From the IMG/VR virus record IMGVR_UViG_3300047121_000011, positions 1 through 31,842 of that record: 31,842 nt of DNA; one strand, given 5' to 3'. Below, in pieces: positions 213 through 5,839 of this stretch; position 1 is the stretch's first letter, and each line of letters starts with the position of its first letter. This stretch comes from a virus. The position numbers and the translations under genes were made by a program. Below the pieces are notes generated by a model that was not told the DNA's origin, did no database searches, and saw only the letters and a program-made list of their open reading frames with translations.

Positions 213-488
213 TTAGAACCCCAGTGGATCGTTCAGATCAGCCTTTGCCCAGTTGTCCTCGGTCAGAGTACCAGCAGGCATCTCGTTCTTCGGCGGAATC
301 TTTTGGCCTTCCTTCAACTGGACGCTAATAGACAAAAAGTTGTTGCCCTGCTTGCTCGCCTTCTTCCAGGCTGACAGCCGGTACTCCGTGCCGCCCACGT
401 TTATGTCACCAGTAAAGTCGGGGCGCTTCTCATTGCCTTTCTTATCGTTCGGAAACAAAACGCCACGGTTCGTGTTATCAAAATTCAC
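213..488 (-). CDS. Small conserved phage protein, DUF736-like
   Basis: A 91-residue soluble protein with the pattern NTNRGVLFPNDKKGNEKRPD, then FTGDINVGGTEYRLSAWKK and NFLSISVQ. This resembles the beta-rich DUF736-type and related small phage proteins often found near single-strand-DNA and recombination genes. The start is GTG at 488, and it overlaps the exonuclease stop in a GTGA junction (485-488), which implies coupled translation. No catalytic motif is visible. A DNA-binding role is a guess from fold resemblance and neighbours. The family assignment comes from memory of the motif and is moderately sure. Confidence 0.75.
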   Translation of the reverse strand: MNFDNTNRGVLFPNDKKGNEKRPDFTGDINVGGTEYRLSAWKKASKQGNNFLSISVQLKEGQKIPPKNEMPAGTLTEDNWAKADLNDPLGF

Positions 489-1093
489 AGGCTCATCTCC
501 TTCAGTTTAGCCACTTTAACATTGAGTTCAGCGAGGAATTCGCTAACCTCTTTCTCTAACAAGGTAATGCAGTCTGTATCCCTCGGGATACGCACTACGA
601 GCAACTGGAGGTTCTCGGGCATCCTCGGATCGTATGAAACCCAGTCGCACCAATCCGCACCCGTGCAGGCCATCTGCCATTGCATCTGATAAAAGTATTT
701 CTGCGGCGGCTCGCGCTCCATCAGGTACTCGATATGGGTTGCCGTACTCGGAGCCTTTATCTCGACGATTCCTGCACCGACGATACCATCAGGTGACGCG
801 CCAGCCATCTTGATAGCCGGATGGTCAATGAAGCCCACCTCGGTGACGAGTTCGCCCACCTTAGCGCTATATGCATCGCGGGCTGCGGCTTCCTGCTCGA
901 CGCCCCACTCCATCGCTGCGTTGCTGAACCCTTCAGTCGGCTTGCCGGTCAGACGCTCGCACACCAACTGCGCCATGTAGTTTGCGCGGCTGGCTGCATA
1001 ACCCGTCTTCGTGCGAGCCACTACGTCAGCCACCTTCGAGGCAGTCACCTTGCCCAAACGGGCGGCGTGCCATTCTGCTGATCGCTGTTCCAT
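485..1093 (-). CDS. YqaJ-type viral recombinase (exonuclease)
   Basis: A 202-residue PD-(D/E)XK nuclease of the YqaJ / lambda-exonuclease type, expected to resect double-stranded DNA ends 5' to 3' to make ssDNA for an annealing protein. Visible motifs are the N-terminal QRSAEWHAARLGKVTASKV (residues 3-21), the helix MEWGVEQEAAARDAY (61-75), the active-site core GASPDG (98-103, D102), VEIK (110-113, E111 and K113), and Q137/Q140 in the final helix. The longer frame opens at 1144, but ATG 1093 fits the family N-terminus and lies just past the upstream stop (1095-1097). It shares an operon with an ERF annealing protein, so the two form a two-part recombination system. Confidence 0.9.
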   Translation of the reverse strand: MEQRSAEWHAARLGKVTASKVADVVARTKTGYAASRANYMAQLVCERLTGKPTEGFSNAAMEWGVEQEAAARDAYSAKVGELVTEVGFIDHPAIKMAGASPDGIVGAGIVEIKAPSTATHIEYLMEREPPQKYFYQMQWQMACTGADWCDWVSYDPRMPENLQLLVVRIPRDTDCITLLEKEVSEFLAELNVKVAKLKEMSL

Positions 1094-1094
1094 A

Positions 1095-1802
1095 TCAAAC
1101 CACCTTGTAATCTTTAAAAACGGCGCCACGAGCGGGGTCGCCAACCTTGCACGACTTTACCCAAACGGTTTTCCCGTTCGGCAAGCGTCGGTGATGTCCT
1201 CGACGTTCGTGGAATCGCGGCGATGCGTGCGTGCCGCCGTGATCTTCCTTGCCAATTTTCTTTCCACTGACAATGAGCGTTCGCCAGGTATAAATAGGCG
1301 GCTTATTCCGCTCTAGTCGTTTCTTGTTAATAAAGTTATCAACGGTTGGGATTGACGCTTTTGTGGGCATATTTGCAAGCCGCTGATACAGCATCGCAAT
1401 TAAGGTCAGACCCCAGTTGCGATTATCAATATCTTGCTGCGTCTCGCCTTCTTTGCGAGTTAAGAACAACTGACCGTCACGAATTGAATATATCGCTGTC
1501 GTTAATAACTTCGGAAGATGCTCTCCGTATCTAATCACCACGGAAAACTTAATACCGACTTCCGGGTCATCTCCCTCCAAAGTCATCAAGACTTCGTGAG
1601 ACACTTTGTTGTGCTGCGCCTGATATACCAAGACGGTCTTATCAAACGGAGGCCGATATGTTGTTAGCCACAATTCTGGCTCAACGTGTACCGCGTGATC
1701 AGTTGGAATTGATCCGCTTAAATCAAACCAATGCCATTCGCACGGGTTTTTCGACGTAGCAACCCACGTCTTAACCATGCGTTGAAGTAATGCGCTCATC
1801 AT
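1095..1802 (-). CDS. Conserved phage protein with His-rich C-terminus
   Basis: A 235-residue protein of unknown function. The C-terminal 50 residues are striking: HGGTHASPRFHERRGHHRR, then GKTVWVKSCKVGD and a KDYKV end. The cluster of His, Cys and Arg suggests metal or nucleic-acid binding. I recall this tail from other phage hypothetical proteins but know no tested function. The start ATG 1802 overlaps the upstream stop as ATGA, with a second ATG at 1799. Counted by hand, bases 1321-1560 are about 41% GC against 60-70% in flanking genes, so the gene may be a recent arrival. A nuclease or anti-host role is possible but unproven. Confidence 0.8.
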   Translation of the reverse strand: MMSALLQRMVKTWVATSKNPCEWHWFDLSGSIPTDHAVHVEPELWLTTYRPPFDKTVLVYQAQHNKVSHEVLMTLEGDDPEVGIKFSVVIRYGEHLPKLLTTAIYSIRDGQLFLTRKEGETQQDIDNRNWGLTLIAMLYQRLANMPTKASIPTVDNFINKKRLERNKPPIYTWRTLIVSGKKIGKEDHGGTHASPRFHERRGHHRRLPNGKTVWVKSCKVGDPARGAVFKDYKVV

Positions 1803-2244: not shown

Positions 2245-2525
2245 AGCGGCGGCACCTCGTACCAGCCCCGCACGATGCGTACCGCCTCCAAGTGGTCACG
2301 CAGGATGCGAAGGTCTTTGGTTTTGCTTTTGTCGAAAAACCCATTCTTCCAATCACCGGCCAGTCGTTCTTTAATGATCTGTTCCAAACTGGCCTCCGTG
2401 GTCGTCAGCGAGTAACGCACGATGTACGCAGATACGTCGTCGATTACTTGCTTGAGAGTTGGGTCTTGCGGGTTGAGAAGATCGGCAAGTGCGTCTTTCT
2501 TTGTTCGGCGCTTAGGCTTTTCCAT
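2241..2525 (-). CDS. Hypothetical protein overlapping the ERF gene
   Basis: A 94-residue protein beginning MEKPKRRTKKDALADLL, basic at the N-terminus and then helical. It is not a recognised family. The start ATG 2525 lies 82 bases inside the 3' end of the ERF gene, in another frame. No later Met is available. A GAGGAG ribosome-binding sequence sits about 11 bases upstream of ATG 2525, inside the ERF coding region, which supports the long overlap. The stop is coupled to the next gene by ATGA. It is likely a small recombination-operon accessory; this is inference. Confidence 0.7.
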   Translation of the reverse strand: MEKPKRRTKKDALADLLNPQDPTLKQVIDDVSAYIVRYSLTTTEASLEQIIKERLAGDWKNGFFDKSKTKDLRILRDHLEAVRIVRGWYEVPPL

Positions 2526-3019
2526 ACGTTGTTCAACTCCTCGATAGTGGTAGCGGCTTCTACGGACGCTTCGACAGCAGGGTCAGTCGCAGAGACTTCG
2601 TGCGTGTGGGCGTCCGCGTCGTTGTCGCCCTCAGTCGGGATACAGAAGGCTTGGAAGGCTGCGTACTTGTAAGCCGCAGACATCGCCTTGTTGCTGGCCT
2701 TGTCGCCAGAGTCCATCGCTTCGCCTACGGTGATGACCGTATGCTTGCTGCCGTCCTCGGCTGCTACAAAGTCAAACTCGACAGTCAGCGTGACGTAGAA
2801 CAGAGCCGTGCCTTGGCGGTTCTGGCGTTCAATAACCTGTCGGTCGGTGACGCGAGGCAGGATGCACAGCCCGTGCTTTGACAGCATGGGCGAGAGCGCA
2901 CCGTACACAGCGTCGATGCCACGGAAAGCGTAGCCCTGTGATGTGTTCTTGCTGTCCTTGCTGATACCGATCTTGGACAGTTCGGCGGTGACAGCAGCAA
3001 TCTTCTCGTAGACCTTCAT
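2444..3019 (-). CDS. erf: ERF-family single-strand annealing protein
   Basis: A 191-residue recombination protein of the P22 Erf / ERF superfamily, which coats ssDNA and anneals complementary strands. The core is diagnostic: KNTSQGYAFRGIDAVYGALS (about residues 26-45), ERQNRQGTALFYVTLTVEF, and then GEAMDSGDKASNKAMSAAYKYA (about 105-126). The C-terminus (IEELNNVWKSLSAEQRK...FSTRKTQL) is the small helical domain often found at the end of ERF proteins, so the stop at 2444 looks natural. ATG 3019 (MKVYEK) forms an ATGA junction with the upstream gene, so the longer frame from 3067 is not used. It probably works with the YqaJ exonuclease downstream. Confidence 0.92.
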   Translation of the reverse strand: MKVYEKIAAVTAELSKIGISKDSKNTSQGYAFRGIDAVYGALSPMLSKHGLCILPRVTDRQVIERQNRQGTALFYVTLTVEFDFVAAEDGSKHTVITVGEAMDSGDKASNKAMSAAYKYAAFQAFCIPTEGDNDADAHTHEVSATDPAVEASVEAATTIEELNNVWKSLSAEQRKTHLPIFSTRKTQLSSK

Positions 3020-3231
3020 TGTGGTTCCCTCAGTTTGGCGGATGCGGCGTCGATAGCAGCAAGGCACTCGGCAAACGCTTGGTGCAGTTTGAAAGCGCCT
3101 TCGGCTTCGATGCGGTTAAGTTCGTTGAGTCCTTCAATGACGTTGAAGGCGGCGTGTTCTGCACGGCAGTGCAGTTCCATGAGTCTGTCGCGCTCCTGCT
3201 CTTGCAGGATGCGGAAGTCATCTTGTTCCAT
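3016..3231 (-). CDS. Small helical protein, first gene of the leftward early operon
   Basis: A 71-residue helical protein (MEQDDFRILQEQERDRLMEL, ending AIDAASAKLREPQ) with no recognised domain. ATG 3231 is preceded by GGAG at 7 bases spacing. The longer frame from 3330 would start upstream of the predicted promoter, so it is rejected. It is the promoter-proximal gene of the operon, about 30 bases after the inferred transcription start, and is coupled to erf by ATGA. Leader peptides or small regulators often hold this place, but the function is unknown. Confidence 0.75.
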   Translation of the reverse strand: MEQDDFRILQEQERDRLMELHCRAEHAAFNVIEGLNELNRIEAEGAFKLHQAFAECLAAIDAASAKLREPQ

Positions 3232-3247
3232 CGTAGTCTCCAGTAAG

Positions 3248-3262
3248 CGGGGCCGATCCCCG
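3248..3262 (-). promoter_or_regulatory. Hairpin at the predicted 5' end of the leftward transcript
   Basis: Perfect inverted repeat CGGGG-CCGAT-CCCCG (5-bp all-GC stem, 5-base loop). The leftward -10 box ends at 3269, so transcription should start near 3261-3263, placing this stem at the very 5' end of the message. It lies upstream of the GGAG site and ATG 3231. 5'-terminal stems of this kind protect phage and bacterial mRNAs from decay; whether this one does is inference. Confidence 0.5.
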
Positions 3263-3268
3263 GAGTCA

Positions 3269-3296
3269 AGTATACGCATGTTGACTATGGTGTCAA
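3269..3296 (-). promoter_or_regulatory. Leftward sigma70-type promoter
   Basis: On the minus strand: TTGACA (3296-3291), a 16-base spacer, and TATACT (3274-3269). The -35 matches consensus fully and the -10 at 5 of 6 positions. It would drive the recombination operon starting at 3231. Its -35 box is one arm of the palindrome at 3279-3298. Confidence 0.75.
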
Positions 3297-3298
3297 CA
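3279..3298. promoter_or_regulatory. Shared operator palindrome
   Basis: Perfect inverted repeat with arms TGTTGAC and GTCAACA around the six bases tatggt. The two arms contain the -35 boxes of both divergent promoters, so one bound dimer would block or set the balance between them. The adjacent Cro-like gene at 3316 is the natural candidate ligand. The palindrome is seen directly; the operator role is inferred from its place. Confidence 0.7.
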
Positions 3299-3309
3299 GT
3301 CGTTACAGT
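3281..3309 (+). promoter_or_regulatory. Rightward sigma70-type promoter
   Basis: TTGACT (3281-3286), 17-base spacer, TACAGT (3304-3309). Only six bases (gcgctc) separate the -10 box from ATG 3316, so the predicted start point falls on or next to the start codon. No ribosome-binding sequence is present, so the message is likely leaderless, as with lambda cI made from PRM. Confidence 0.7.
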
Positions 3310-3315
3310 GCGCTC

Positions 3316-3489
3316 ATGACACCGAAGCAACTACTGAAGATTTATGGTTCCCAAGCGGAGATCGCTCGGGCGTTAGGCGTGACTCGTCAGGCCGTGCTGC
3401 GCTGGTTCAAGGAAAACAAGATTCCTGCTCTGCGGCTGTATCAGATTGAATGTGTGGTGAAGCCCAATGATCCAGCAGCAGATCGTTAG
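3316..3489 (+). CDS. Cro-like helix-turn-helix repressor
   Basis: A 57-residue protein with a clear helix-turn-helix, GSQAEIARALGVTRQAVLRW (residues 11-30), followed by KIPALRLYQIE, which is typical of Cro and YdaS-type phage repressors. Length is normal for Cro (about 60-70 residues). It is the first gene of the rightward operon, immediately after an operator that overlaps two divergent promoters, so autoregulation and repression of the leftward recombination promoter are expected. ATG 3316 is six bases after the -10 box with no ribosome-binding site, pointing to leaderless translation. The 3' end overlaps the next gene by 23 bases. No CI-type partner lies in this window. Confidence 0.88.
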   Translation: MTPKQLLKIYGSQAEIARALGVTRQAVLRWFKENKIPALRLYQIECVVKPNDPAADR

Positions 3490-3802
3490 TAGCGACATTT
3501 CGTGGGCGTCGCAGGCCAACGTTCGGTACTGGGAGTCGGTAAGGAATAATCCTTACCACAAACTCCGGTTAGCCGATGCGTACCTTGCTCGGATCAACGT
3601 AGGCGAGTGGTCGCAGCGGGCAGAGCGCACGTCGTGGCTAAAGAACTACGTGGGCGACATCCTCCGCAGCCTCACCGACGTAAAGGAAGCCTATGGCGAC
3701 CCGCACATCCGTGGCATGGTGCGGGAGTTGTGGGGCGAACCTGGCGTAGACCGATTGAAGGCAAGGGCGGAAGCAATGATACAAGACGAAAAAGGCAGTT
3801 AA
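3467..3802 (+). CDS. Hypothetical protein after the Cro-like gene
   Basis: A 111-residue, mainly helical protein (MIQQQIVSSDISWASQANVR at the start). No family is recognised. ATG 3467 lies inside the 3' end of the Cro-like gene (23-base overlap, different frame) and has a purine-rich GGTGAAG upstream. GC content is high: about 64% by hand count over 3601-3720. Gene position is like that of lambda cII or replication initiators, but no HTH or DNA-binding motif is visible, so function is left open. Confidence 0.75.
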   Translation: MIQQQIVSSDISWASQANVRYWESVRNNPYHKLRLADAYLARINVGEWSQRAERTSWLKNYVGDILRSLTDVKEAYGDPHIRGMVRELWGEPGVDRLKARAEAMIQDEKGS

Positions 3803-3805
3803 AAA

Positions 3806-4321
3806 GTGTACGTTGTTTTAAGTGATGCGGAACAAAGGTTGGCAAAATACTTAGCCAAGCAGAGGTACGAAAACGCCAGAAGGAAAGGCTTGCCTGATCG
3901 GAAAATGGGCGATCAGTCAAATGAACTTACCGACCTGGAAGGCATTGCCTCTGAGATTGCTTTTTGTAAATTGGCAAATGTTTATCCTGATTTAGACCTT
4001 GACCACACTAAAGCGGAAGATTGTTATCTGAGAGATGGAAGGTCAGTTGACATTAAATCTACCACTTACGAAAGCGGAAGGCTTTTGGCCGTGCGGTGGA
4101 AGGACGCTAAAGCCGTAGACGTGTTTGTATTGATGGTCGGAAGGTTCCCTAAATACCGATGCGCTGGTTTCTTGCCGTCAGCCGAGTTGCTTGACGATAA
4201 AAGGCTGACTAACCTTGGGCATGGGGAAGGCTATGCTGCCAACCAAAATGAATTGCTTGACATAAAATTGATAACACCATGCGCTACGCCAAACGTCGGG
4301 ACAACAACCACACGGATATAG
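3806..4321 (+). CDS. Putative PD-(D/E)XK endonuclease-like protein, AT-rich
   Basis: A 171-residue protein that fits the PD-(D/E)XK restriction-endonuclease-like fold: E50 in GIASEIAFCK, D72, and the core VDIK (residues 81-84: D82, K84) followed by a beta-strand RLLAVRW. The start is GTG 3806, four bases after the upstream stop, since no good ATG exists before residue 34. Composition differs from its neighbours: bases 3841-4080 are about 43% GC against about 64% in the upstream gene. This suggests acquisition from elsewhere, as for homing or anti-host nucleases. It overlaps the next gene by 43 bases. The nuclease call rests on a short motif and is moderate. Confidence 0.65.
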   Translation: MYVVLSDAEQRLAKYLAKQRYENARRKGLPDRKMGDQSNELTDLEGIASEIAFCKLANVYPDLDLDHTKAEDCYLRDGRSVDIKSTTYESGRLLAVRWKDAKAVDVFVLMVGRFPKYRCAGFLPSAELLDDKRLTNLGHGEGYAANQNELLDIKLITPCATPNVGTTTTRI

Positions 4322-4587
4322 TCGAAGCCCTCCGCAAGGCAAACTTCGAGGTCATCGACTTTGCCAGCGCCGGTCACGACATCCCTGACTTGCTTGCCAT
4401 CAAGCCTATGCACGACGGCATGGCGTGGATATGTTGGGTAGAGGTCAAGGCGAAGGGCGGACGGCTCTCAGACGGCCAGAAGCGCTTTAGGGGATTGTTT
4501 GAACCTAGGGGCGAGTGGTACGAAGCGCGTGACCCAGACGATACGGTCTGCGCGATCCAAGCCCTGTACTTGCAGCGGCTTAAATAA
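4279..4587 (+). CDS. VRR-NUC-like nuclease
   Basis: A 102-residue protein with the compact VRR-NUC / Holliday-junction-resolvase-like nuclease pattern: E15 in IVEALRK, AGHDIPDLLA with D37, a WVEVK core with E55 and K57, then GRLSDGQKRF with Q67. This is a PD-(D/E)XK arrangement with the usual post-core Gln. Phage proteins of this kind may resolve branched DNA or nick DNA during recombination and replication. ATG 4279 lies 43 bases inside the preceding gene. No clear Shine-Dalgarno sequence precedes it, so translation may depend on re-initiation. Confidence 0.8.
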   Translation: MRYAKRRDNNHTDIVEALRKANFEVIDFASAGHDIPDLLAIKPMHDGMAWICWVEVKAKGGRLSDGQKRFRGLFEPRGEWYEARDPDDTVCAIQALYLQRLK

Positions 4588-4605: not shown

Positions 4606-4869
4606 ATGAACAACTGGCGCTCACTAAACCAATCACTGAACTTACTGAACGAGGGGCAGGTCAAAGCCCTGCTTGACGATGAGATCGTCGGCCAACGTCG
4701 CACGACGTTCCTCAAGCGGCTGCACCAACGCTACTGCATCCTGCGGGCCGCTCGGGAACGCGCTGAGATTTTCAGCGCCGTCGCAGATAAGTCAGATAGT
4801 CCGCACCTTCCTGCGGGTCCCACCACACTTTCACCAAGTCTGGATGCTCAGGCGGCAATTCTGGGTTGA
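4606..4869 (+). CDS. Small conserved helical phage protein, convergent overlap
   Basis: An 87-residue protein. Residues 1-56 have the pattern SLNQSLNLLNEGQVKALLDD, then RRTTFLKRLHQRYCILRAARERAE. I recall the RLHQRY-x-LR-x-x-RER helix from small phage proteins of unknown function. The remaining 31 residues (from about 4774) are coded opposite the 3' end of the leftward phosphoesterase gene and look low in structure. The coding overlap is 98 bp (4772-4869). The start has no Shine-Dalgarno site and sits six bases after a -10 box. It may be a small regulator or adaptor; unknown. Confidence 0.7.
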   Translation: MNNWRSLNQSLNLLNEGQVKALLDDEIVGQRRTTFLKRLHQRYCILRAARERAEIFSAVADKSDSPHLPAGPTTLSPSLDAQAAILG

Positions 4870-5839
4870 TGGTCGTCAGGACGCAGGGTGACAGGGCGTT
4901 GTCCCTGAACCCTCGATCCTTCGCATAACGGTCGTAGACCTTGTATGAGGCAACCTTGCAGGCGTGCATGGTAATGCCGCTAATCGCATCTTTCAGGACG
5001 CTGTAGGCGCTCTCGTGCTTATGCCCTGCCACGTAGATGTGGTCGCGGGTTCCCATGATGGCCGCCTTCATCGGGCCGTGTGCCGGGTTCCAGATGGACG
5101 AGCCGCTGTGGTCGTGACGAGCGTTAACCCGCACTTCCATGCCGTTCGGGAACCGAAGCGCTATACGGGCTTCTGAGGACTTATAGAGCGCGTTCTGCTG
5201 CTTGGCTATCCACTTCAGCGGATCGCCTGAACCTGACCACAGGTCGTGGTTTCCGGCAATCATGTAGAGCCAGTCGCAGCGACCGACAAACCACTCGGCA
5301 ATCTTCCAGGCTTGCGAGGCAGACGTACTCTGGTCGGCGTAAAGCCTTGCTAAACGACCACACCAGTTGTTCGTGGTGTCGCCTACGTTGCAGGCAAACA
5401 GCCCCTCGGTCTTGTTCACCAGCGCCGTGTGCCGCTCAATGGCCTCAATGTCGCAGCCGTCGTCGTCTACGTGCGGGTCGCCAAAGTGCAGCAGGCCGAT
5501 AGCGCCGCCGAGTTTGACCTTAATAGGAATGAGTTTGGAGGCTTCTTCGTGTTCGCGCTTGTGGGCAAACTTGCGCTTGCGCTGTTCGATCAACTCCTCA
5601 ATGGGAACGTCGTCGTCAGGCAGCGGGGTAAAGGAGAATCCGGGCTTTTCTACGTCTTGCTTAACCGCACCGGCTTTGTAAGTGGACTCAGGGATGATAT
5701 ATCCCTTGGCCTTCATCTTTTTGAGCCGCATCATCAGGCTTCGTTCGTTAAGCCCTAGTTTGTTAGCGGTAACGGCTCGTATGCCGTTAGCGTCTTGTAG
5801 TTCCTTTAGGATTTCATCGTCAGTGGCTTTTGCTTGCAT
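4772..5839 (-). CDS. HTH-metallophosphoesterase, calcineurin-like
   Basis: A 355-residue protein in two parts. Residues 1-50 form a winged or HTH-like region (GIRAVTANKLGLNERSLMMR). From about 112 on it is a calcineurin-type dimetal phosphoesterase with all signature blocks: GDPHVDD (D121, H123), NVGD (D154), AGNHDLW (N197, H198, D199), HDH (H242, H244) and AGHKHE (H273, H275). Substrates could be DNA ends, cyclic nucleotides or other phosphodiesters; the sequence does not say. The HTH suggests nucleic acid. It is the last gene of the leftward late operon, three bases after the HExxH gene, and its 3' end overlaps the convergent gene at 4606-4869. Confidence 0.88.
   Translation of the reverse strand: MQAKATDDEILKELQDANGIRAVTANKLGLNERSLMMRLKKMKAKGYIIPESTYKAGAVKQDVEKPGFSFTPLPDDDVPIEELIEQRKRKFAHKREHEEASKLIPIKVKLGGAIGLLHFGDPHVDDDGCDIEAIERHTALVNKTEGLFACNVGDTTNNWCGRLARLYADQSTSASQAWKIAEWFVGRCDWLYMIAGNHDLWSGSGDPLKWIAKQQNALYKSSEARIALRFPNGMEVRVNARHDHSGSSIWNPAHGPMKAAIMGTRDHIYVAGHKHESAYSVLKDAISGITMHACKVASYKVYDRYAKDRGFRDNALSPCVLTTINPELPPEHPDLVKVWWDPQEGADYLTYLRRR

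Follow-up and report, generated by a model that had tools for sequence, protein, structure and literature searches.

Interlocked divergent early promoters and candidate Cro sites in a P22-like freshwater podovirus

In the immunity regions of lambda and P22, Cro is produced from the rightward early promoter, the recombination genes lie on the leftward operon, and Cro represses both. The late role of lambda Cro is to turn down the early promoters. Operators and Cro specificities of lambdoid phages are thought to diversify because prophage repressors confer immunity. Lambda Cro has a mixed fold, and N15/P22-type Cro proteins have an all-helical fold. The operator sites of N15/phiKO2 and PY54 are 16 bp long, the Cro proteins of PY54 and phiKO2 each bind one such site, and the cro and cI mRNAs of PY54 are leaderless (PMC4488713, PMC4997575). 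These phages are temperate and have a CI/CB gene opposite cro; the target of PY54 Cro is cI and apparently not cro. Bidirectional promoters of Escherichia coli let one DNA stretch accept polymerase in two exclusive orientations and share a symmetric -10 element (PMC12825309). The conjugation switch of pLS20, a plasmid of a Gram-positive host, is reported to use overlapping divergent promoters and DNA looping (PMC4207663). We found no paper on early control in the phage clade analyzed below.

We analyzed an IMG/VR virus record of 31,842 bp, which was taken whole and is called the window. It is a fragment of a P22-like podovirus, a freshwater phage, and contains P22-like virion genes (portal, coat, DNA ejection, and head closure). 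The cro gene opposes a leftward operon that begins with a 71-residue ORF and ERF and includes a YqaJ exonuclease gene farther on. The genes around the control region are:

485 to 1144, minus strand: YqaJ-type exonuclease of the leftward operon (Pfam YqaJ, 3.7e-29)
2444 to 3019, minus strand: ERF single-strand annealing protein (Pfam ERF, 9.5e-22; phrog_155)
3016 to 3231, minus strand: leftward operon ORF 1, 71 residues, without assigned function, Shine-Dalgarno (SD) sequence TGGAG
3316 to 3489, plus strand: cro, 57 residues, N15/P22-type Cro
3467 to 3802, plus strand: rightward operon ORF 2, 111 residues, no match in PHROGs or Pfam
4279 to 4587, plus strand: VRR-NUC nuclease of the rightward operon (Pfam VRR_NUC, 3.1e-6)

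The cro operon also holds a 171-residue ORF with a GTG start (3806-4321, plus strand; phrog_18407, weak DUF5843 match). A metallophosphoesterase-like protein is encoded at 4772-5839 on the minus strand (phrog_7339, 2.8e-42), and its first 50 residues give a weak HTH match.

The initial annotation had taken the 57-residue protein for Cro, and both its family and its fold agree. Pfam P22_Cro matches with 43.9 bits against a curated cut-off of 30.2 (E 2e-11), which identifies an N15/P22-type Cro; Pfam YdaS also matches (4.7e-11). The closest solved relatives are N15 Cro (2hin, 7e-4) and P22 Cro (1rzs). An AlphaFold model built from 44 sequences (pLDDT 85.1) has five helices and no strand, which fits the all-helical Cro fold. 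Its best structural match is 6on0, N15 Cro bound to operator DNA (TM 0.77, rmsd 0.8 over 46 columns). P22 Cro 1rzs comes next among other proteins, and nothing in the structure search fell below E 0.001. The modeled protein therefore shares the N15-type fold of the PY54, phiKO2, and N15 Cro proteins (best PDB entries 6on0 and 2hin).

Unlike those temperate phages, the window has the ERF/YqaJ operon opposite cro, and no CI gene was found. The lack of a CI gene beside the control region had been noticed before, and it extends well beyond the locus: HTH_3 matched at just one place in each of 15 records, and in G000 that place is Cro. Searches with the HTH_3, S24, PF00589, and PF00239 models, in records that may be fragments, detected no S24-type CI repressor and no resolvase (PF00239) in 16 records and no tyrosine integrase (PF00589) in 15 records or in 15 sister-lineage records. 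The sister-lineage records contain at most one HTH_3 place each, with a match in 10 of the 15. Exact 127-bp repeats at the ends mark two records of about 37.5 kb (G001 and G004) as probably complete, and the window is about 6 kb short of a genome like these. Inspecting the ORFs of G001 by eye revealed no evident repressor or integrase. Neither a CI gene next to cro nor an integrase, the marks of a lambdoid genetic switch, was found in the records examined. A profile search of genome contigs with alignment A2 for prophage relatives of Cro accompanied by CI returned no relative, and a genome-contig search with the window Cro gave three distant partial matches, in Lachnospiraceae and Clostridia.

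A consensus scan of positions 2900-3700 returned exactly two promoter-like sites, where shuffled sequences averaged 0.5. The leftward promoter, TTGACA-16-TATACT, runs from 3296 to 3269 on the minus strand and matches the consensus at 11 of 12 positions. The rightward promoter, TTGACT-17-TACAGT, runs from 3281 to 3309 on the plus strand and matches at 9 of 12. The features of the control region are:

3248 to 3262, minus strand: stem-loop CGGGG-AUCGG-CCCCG where the leftward mRNA is predicted to begin, with compensated stem changes and the loop AUYGG kept among relatives
3269 to 3274, minus strand: leftward promoter -10, TATACT (consensus scan), predicted start at about 3262
3270 to 3285, no strand assigned: candidate Cro site OL, 16 bp, GTATAC-GCAT-GTTGAC, over the leftward -10 and the rightward -35; half-sites agree at 4 of 6 positions
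3279 to 3298, no strand assigned: perfect palindrome TGTTGAC-TATGGT-GTCAACA; TTGAC-N6-8-GTCAA faces in the same way in 21 of 21 distinct upstreams of the window's own helix class, TRQAVLR
3281 to 3286, plus strand: rightward (cro) promoter -35, TTGACT (consensus scan)
3291 to 3296, minus strand: leftward promoter -35, TTGACA (consensus scan)
3292 to 3307, no strand assigned: candidate Cro site OR, 16 bp, GTCAAC-AGTC-GTTACA, over the leftward -35 and the rightward -10; half-sites agree at only 3 of 6 positions
3304 to 3309, plus strand: rightward promoter -10, TACAGT (consensus scan), predicted start on the A of the cro start codon, about 3316

The sequences and positions first annotated for the two promoters are correct. 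Their description as overlapping back to back captures a real overlap and is too weak, as each -35 box lies inside the spacer of the other promoter: the leftward box (3291-3296) falls within the rightward spacer, and the rightward box (3281-3286) falls within the leftward spacer. Two polymerases would therefore not be expected to fit together. The analysis supports two divergent, very compact early promoters that separate a recombination operon from a Cro operon. The claim that this compactness is unusual is not supported, since control through one 16-bp Cro site has a precedent in PY54 and in phiKO2 (PMC4488713, PMC4997575). The layout differs from that of the E. coli bidirectional promoters (PMC12825309), because the window has interlocked -35 boxes and separate -10 boxes (3269-3274 and 3304-3309). 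The pLS20 switch resembles the window in its overlapping divergent promoters and differs in being a Gram-positive plasmid system with looping.

Both -35 boxes lie in the arms of the palindrome TGTTGACTATGGTGTCAACA, which is exact at 3279-3298, as had been annotated. It is the sole copy in the record at two or fewer mismatches; further copies had been proposed as something to look for, and none was found within that distance of the full palindrome. The perfect core GTTGAC-N6-GTCAAC occurs once per record in 15 of 15 records, where it may be the halves of two sites. With two mismatches allowed, its counts resemble those of a reversed control (e.g. 5 versus 4 in G000). Perfect arms of at least 7 bp would arise by chance in an 84-bp spacer of the same composition with p = 0.022. 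Given two facing TTGAC cores, however, such arms arise with p = 0.066 (outward extension) or p = 0.16 (any extension), which makes the symmetry by itself a weak argument for an operator. We rejected perfect symmetry as proof of an operator because facing -35 boxes produce symmetry cheaply. The palindrome is mostly two -35 boxes that face each other, and it is not a new kind of switch. In a sister group (L014-L051 and L053), the outermost palindrome pair is broken, which leaves 6-bp arms.

Because symmetry by itself does not prove an operator, we compared relatives. Eight viral scans and a few other fetches yielded 369 entries (loci plus the window) that match a Cro-family regular expression; L001 is the window's own copy and was excluded from the relatives. 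Many loci are the same contig fetched twice, and all counts use distinct upstreams only. The six helix classes counted comprise 342 matches, 4 of them too short, and 131 distinct 75-base upstreams. Classes were set by seven recognition-helix residues, and both the helix classes and the site patterns were picked after viewing the data. The distinct upstreams number 21 for TRQAVLR (the window's class), 6 for TRQSINK/SRQAIHK, 33 for TRAAVQQ, 5 for TRAAVQL/TRSAVQQ, 39 for TKG, and 27 for xPA.

Among these 131 upstreams, the type of site tracks the recognition helix. Facing TTGAC..GTCAA motifs are present in all 21 TRQAVLR and all 6 TRQSINK/SRQAIHK upstreams, in 32/33 TRAAVQQ and 1/5 TRAAVQL/TRSAVQQ upstreams, and in none of the TKG (0/39) or xPA (0/27) upstreams. 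TKG upstreams, which lack the facing dyad, carry GTTTAG-N4-[CA]TAWAC instead (39/39, against 0/92 others). AAC-N4-GTT[AG] was found in 21/21 TRQAVLR and 27/27 xPA upstreams and in 0/83 others; its chance rate is about 0.6% per upstream, for a pattern chosen after looking and with each lineage representing one history. GTCAAG-N4-CTTGCA is present in 5/5 TRAAVQL/TRS upstreams and absent from all other counted classes. On an ERF tree, 6 of 6 independent pairs show agreement of site class with helix class (sign test 0.031). Because no more than about 150 bp separates the helix codons from the operator, linkage alone may produce such co-inheritance, and we rejected it as proof of binding for that reason.

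Spacing among the relatives bears on how a Cro dimer might sit. The facing layout is present in 63 distinct upstreams. In all 63, the leftward -10 and the rightward -35 are 6 bp apart; the gap between the -35 hexamers is 4, 5, or 6 (25, 30, and 8 upstreams), and 6, 7, or 16 bp separate the leftward -35 from the rightward -10 (38, 21, and 4 upstreams). Hexamer gaps of 5 and of 6 are found with Cros only two residues apart. Such variation beside near-identical Cros would be unexpected for a rigid dimer on the central dyad, while the leftward -10 and the opposite -35 stay together as a constant unit. A dyad scan found that the N4 dyads of TKG and xPA start at -24, near the rightward -10, and the window fills this slot with GTCAAC-AGTC-GTTACA. 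Sister Cros likewise have candidate 16-bp sites (hexamer-N4-hexamer) at -10 boxes, and the OL candidate has the same slot and N4 frame as GTTTAG-N4-CTAWAC of the TKG lineage. As the sister sites occupy the same slots as GTATAC-N4-GTTGAC and GTCAAC-N4-GTTACA, the palindrome is likelier to be two inner halves than one site.

We therefore lean, at slightly less than even confidence, toward two adjacent predicted 16-bp Cro sites, with the palindrome formed by their inner half-sites facing each other. The initial annotation had proposed a single dimer site; the variable hexamer gap and the shared slots of the sister N4 sites are why we prefer two. In TRQAVLR, all five non-promoter half-site columns of the two-site model are invariant; among all 17 non-promoter columns, 9 are (p = 0.02, post hoc). 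The rightward -10 of TRAAVQL has shifted downstream, and GTCAAG-N4-CTTGCA is still kept in 5/5 TRAAVQL/TRS upstreams although that -10 moved away. Several observations count against two sites. OL and OR are poorly symmetric (4/6 and 3/6) while the central dyad is perfect, and an unbiased scan ranks the central dyad strongest in the window lineage, TRQSINK/SRQ, and TRAAVQQ. TRQSINK/SRQAIHK upstreams fit poorly (AAC-N4-GTT[AG] in 0/6), and the two-site frame was devised after the data were seen. The weak symmetry of OL and OR, the strong central dyad, and the poor fit of TRQSINK/SRQ set the confidence given here to two sites and to the two readings that follow.

A single Cro dimer on TGTTGAC-N6-GTCAACA, covering both -35 boxes and repressing both promoters, seems to us rather unlikely. 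It would account for the perfect 7-bp arms, which form the top dyad of the lineage, for the one perfect GTTGAC-N6-GTCAAC per record (15/15), and for the facing TTGAC..GTCAA in 59/60 upstreams of TRQAVLR, TRQSINK/SRQAIHK, and TRAAVQQ combined, against 0/39 in TKG. A single 16-bp Cro site also has a precedent in PY54 (PMC4488713). The arms are largely -35 consensus, however, their outer pair is broken in the sister group, and the hexamer gap takes values of 4, 5, and 6 among relatives, with 5 and 6 beside Cros two residues apart. Placed in a 16-bp frame, the central operator would have the half-site TTGAC(T/G), which is unlike GTTTAG, ATTAAC, or the TTATAG of the N15-like L181. The two non-promoter columns that one site predicts in TRQAVLR are both invariant (p = 0.27). 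Less probable again is that the palindrome is nothing but two facing -35 hexamers, with Cro acting elsewhere or not on the promoters. The p values of 0.066-0.16 given facing cores agree with such an origin, as do most TRAAVQQ upstreams, in which the perfect arms are just the two hexamers. It explains neither the conserved non-promoter bases beside the hexamers nor the operator-like repeats that sister lineages carry at these positions and that vary along with the recognition helix, and the palindrome has no other copy in the record at two or fewer mismatches.

The annotation had further suggested a one-site switch between the recombination and Cro operons. The layout implies mutually exclusive polymerase binding, which would suit a bistable device, yet we regard such a choice as highly improbable. 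Any Cro site here would block parts of both promoters, and any repressor bound here would cover elements of both and should lower both. The searches turned up no second HTH_3 regulator (15 records) and no S24 repressor (16 records), and Cro would repress its own promoter, which makes no toggle. Under one-site or two-site geometry alike, Cro probably blocks both promoters, giving shut-off and autorepression.

Under the two-site reading, the locus would control the early genes of a P22-like podovirus that is without CI and presumably strictly lytic. On infection, both sigma70 promoters would be open to host RNA polymerase, one at a time. Rightward transcription would yield a leaderless cro mRNA, and leftward transcription the ERF/YqaJ recombination operon. 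As Cro accumulated, dimers could occupy OL (3270-3285) and OR (3292-3307). Since each of these would cover one promoter at its -10 and the opposite promoter at its -35, either bound dimer would hinder both promoters. Bound Cro would then cause a delayed shut-off of the early genes, including the recombination genes, together with autorepression. We infer the start sites, polymerase exclusion, Cro binding, two-site geometry, and timing in this scheme. The proposed mechanism corresponds to the late role of lambda Cro with pL and pR fused. The window shares with lambda and P22 a rightward Cro, leftward recombination genes, and presumed double repression; it differs in its fused pL and pR, in having no CI or integrase found, and in having two abutting candidate sites, or one, rather than six. 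The proposed autorepression also differs from PY54, where Cro acts on cI and apparently not on cro.

Several comparisons point to movement of this region between relatives. The distribution of the TKG helix class on the ERF tree (61 rows) requires at least 6 changes along branches with good support, and three identical-ERF sets contain both TKG and TRA phages. Over 1,619 bp of the leftward operon, L223 (TKG) and L323 (TRA) show 99.57% identity. The shared stretch stops 70 bp upstream of cro in L323 and 382 bp upstream of it in L223, and the two carry different promoter-operator-cro modules, with the swap edge near the leftward start. In L102/L182 (TKG), the 3' half of cro matches that of TRA phages (L106-type loci; 98% over nt 87-150), whereas the 5' half is only 64-66% identical and the operator region is not shared. 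By sequence comparison, the recombination edge in L102/L182 is directly after the recognition-helix codons. The pattern looks like an exchange of immunity regions in phages without a recognizable CI. We raise, as a doubtful proposal, that CI-less phages may keep, diversify, and exchange a mini immunity-like module made of fused pL/pR, two interdigitated Cro operators (each blocking one -10 and the other -35), and the recognition-helix half of cro. If true, swaps of the L223/L323 type would diversify repressor specificity without lysogeny, with co-infection or the repressors of resident prophages as the driving force.

The clade is widespread and yielded neither CI nor integrase, yet it diversifies and exchanges Cro and operator, which makes it a clean comparison with the lambdoids. 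If Cro-on-Cro repression between co-infecting lytic phages drives this diversification, plasmid-borne Cro should block phages of the same class only. The TKG, TRA, TRQ, and xPA helices and their sites are natural sets for deriving a specificity code of N15-type Cro.

The cro mRNA looks leaderless, with a predicted start at the A of the ATG. The rightward -10 sits 6-7 nt before the cro ATG in the window's lineage, and a TA...T motif at 5-9 nt before the ATG is present in 123/131 upstreams, the 8 misses being xPA. An SD-like motif was found in 0/131 distinct upstreams in the 13 bases before cro, compared with 15/28 other putative genes of the window and 5.2% of random 13-mers.

The predicted hairpin at the 5' end of the leftward mRNA has a 5-bp stem and a 5-nt loop. 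Among relatives, the stems CGGGG/CCCCG, CGAGG/CCTCG, TGAGG/CCTCA, and GTGAGG/CCTCAC all occur with the loop ATYGG. The stem is down to 4 pairs in one TRQSINK sequence, and a single TRQAVLR match that forms 1 pair is not the hairpin. The folding energy is ordinary (z -0.25), so support comes from the comparison between lineages only. Conservation of the loop while the stem changes points to an RNA element rather than a DNA operator, and protection of the 5' end is an ordinary guess at its role. TKG and TRA phages have CGUUG-ACAAACA-CAACG at the hairpin position instead. Upstream of cro at 2748 in L016, the hairpin and the usual start of leftward ORF 1 are replaced, and the promoters and palindrome remain.

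An SD-like motif is present in the more distant Cro groups SRASVNR, TRQAISL, and GGSAVWH. The loci L063-L068 and L074-L078 form one such distant group, with the helix TRQAISL and an SD before cro. Most of them carry GTCAA-N5-TTGAC upstream of cro, with -35-like boxes pointing apart.
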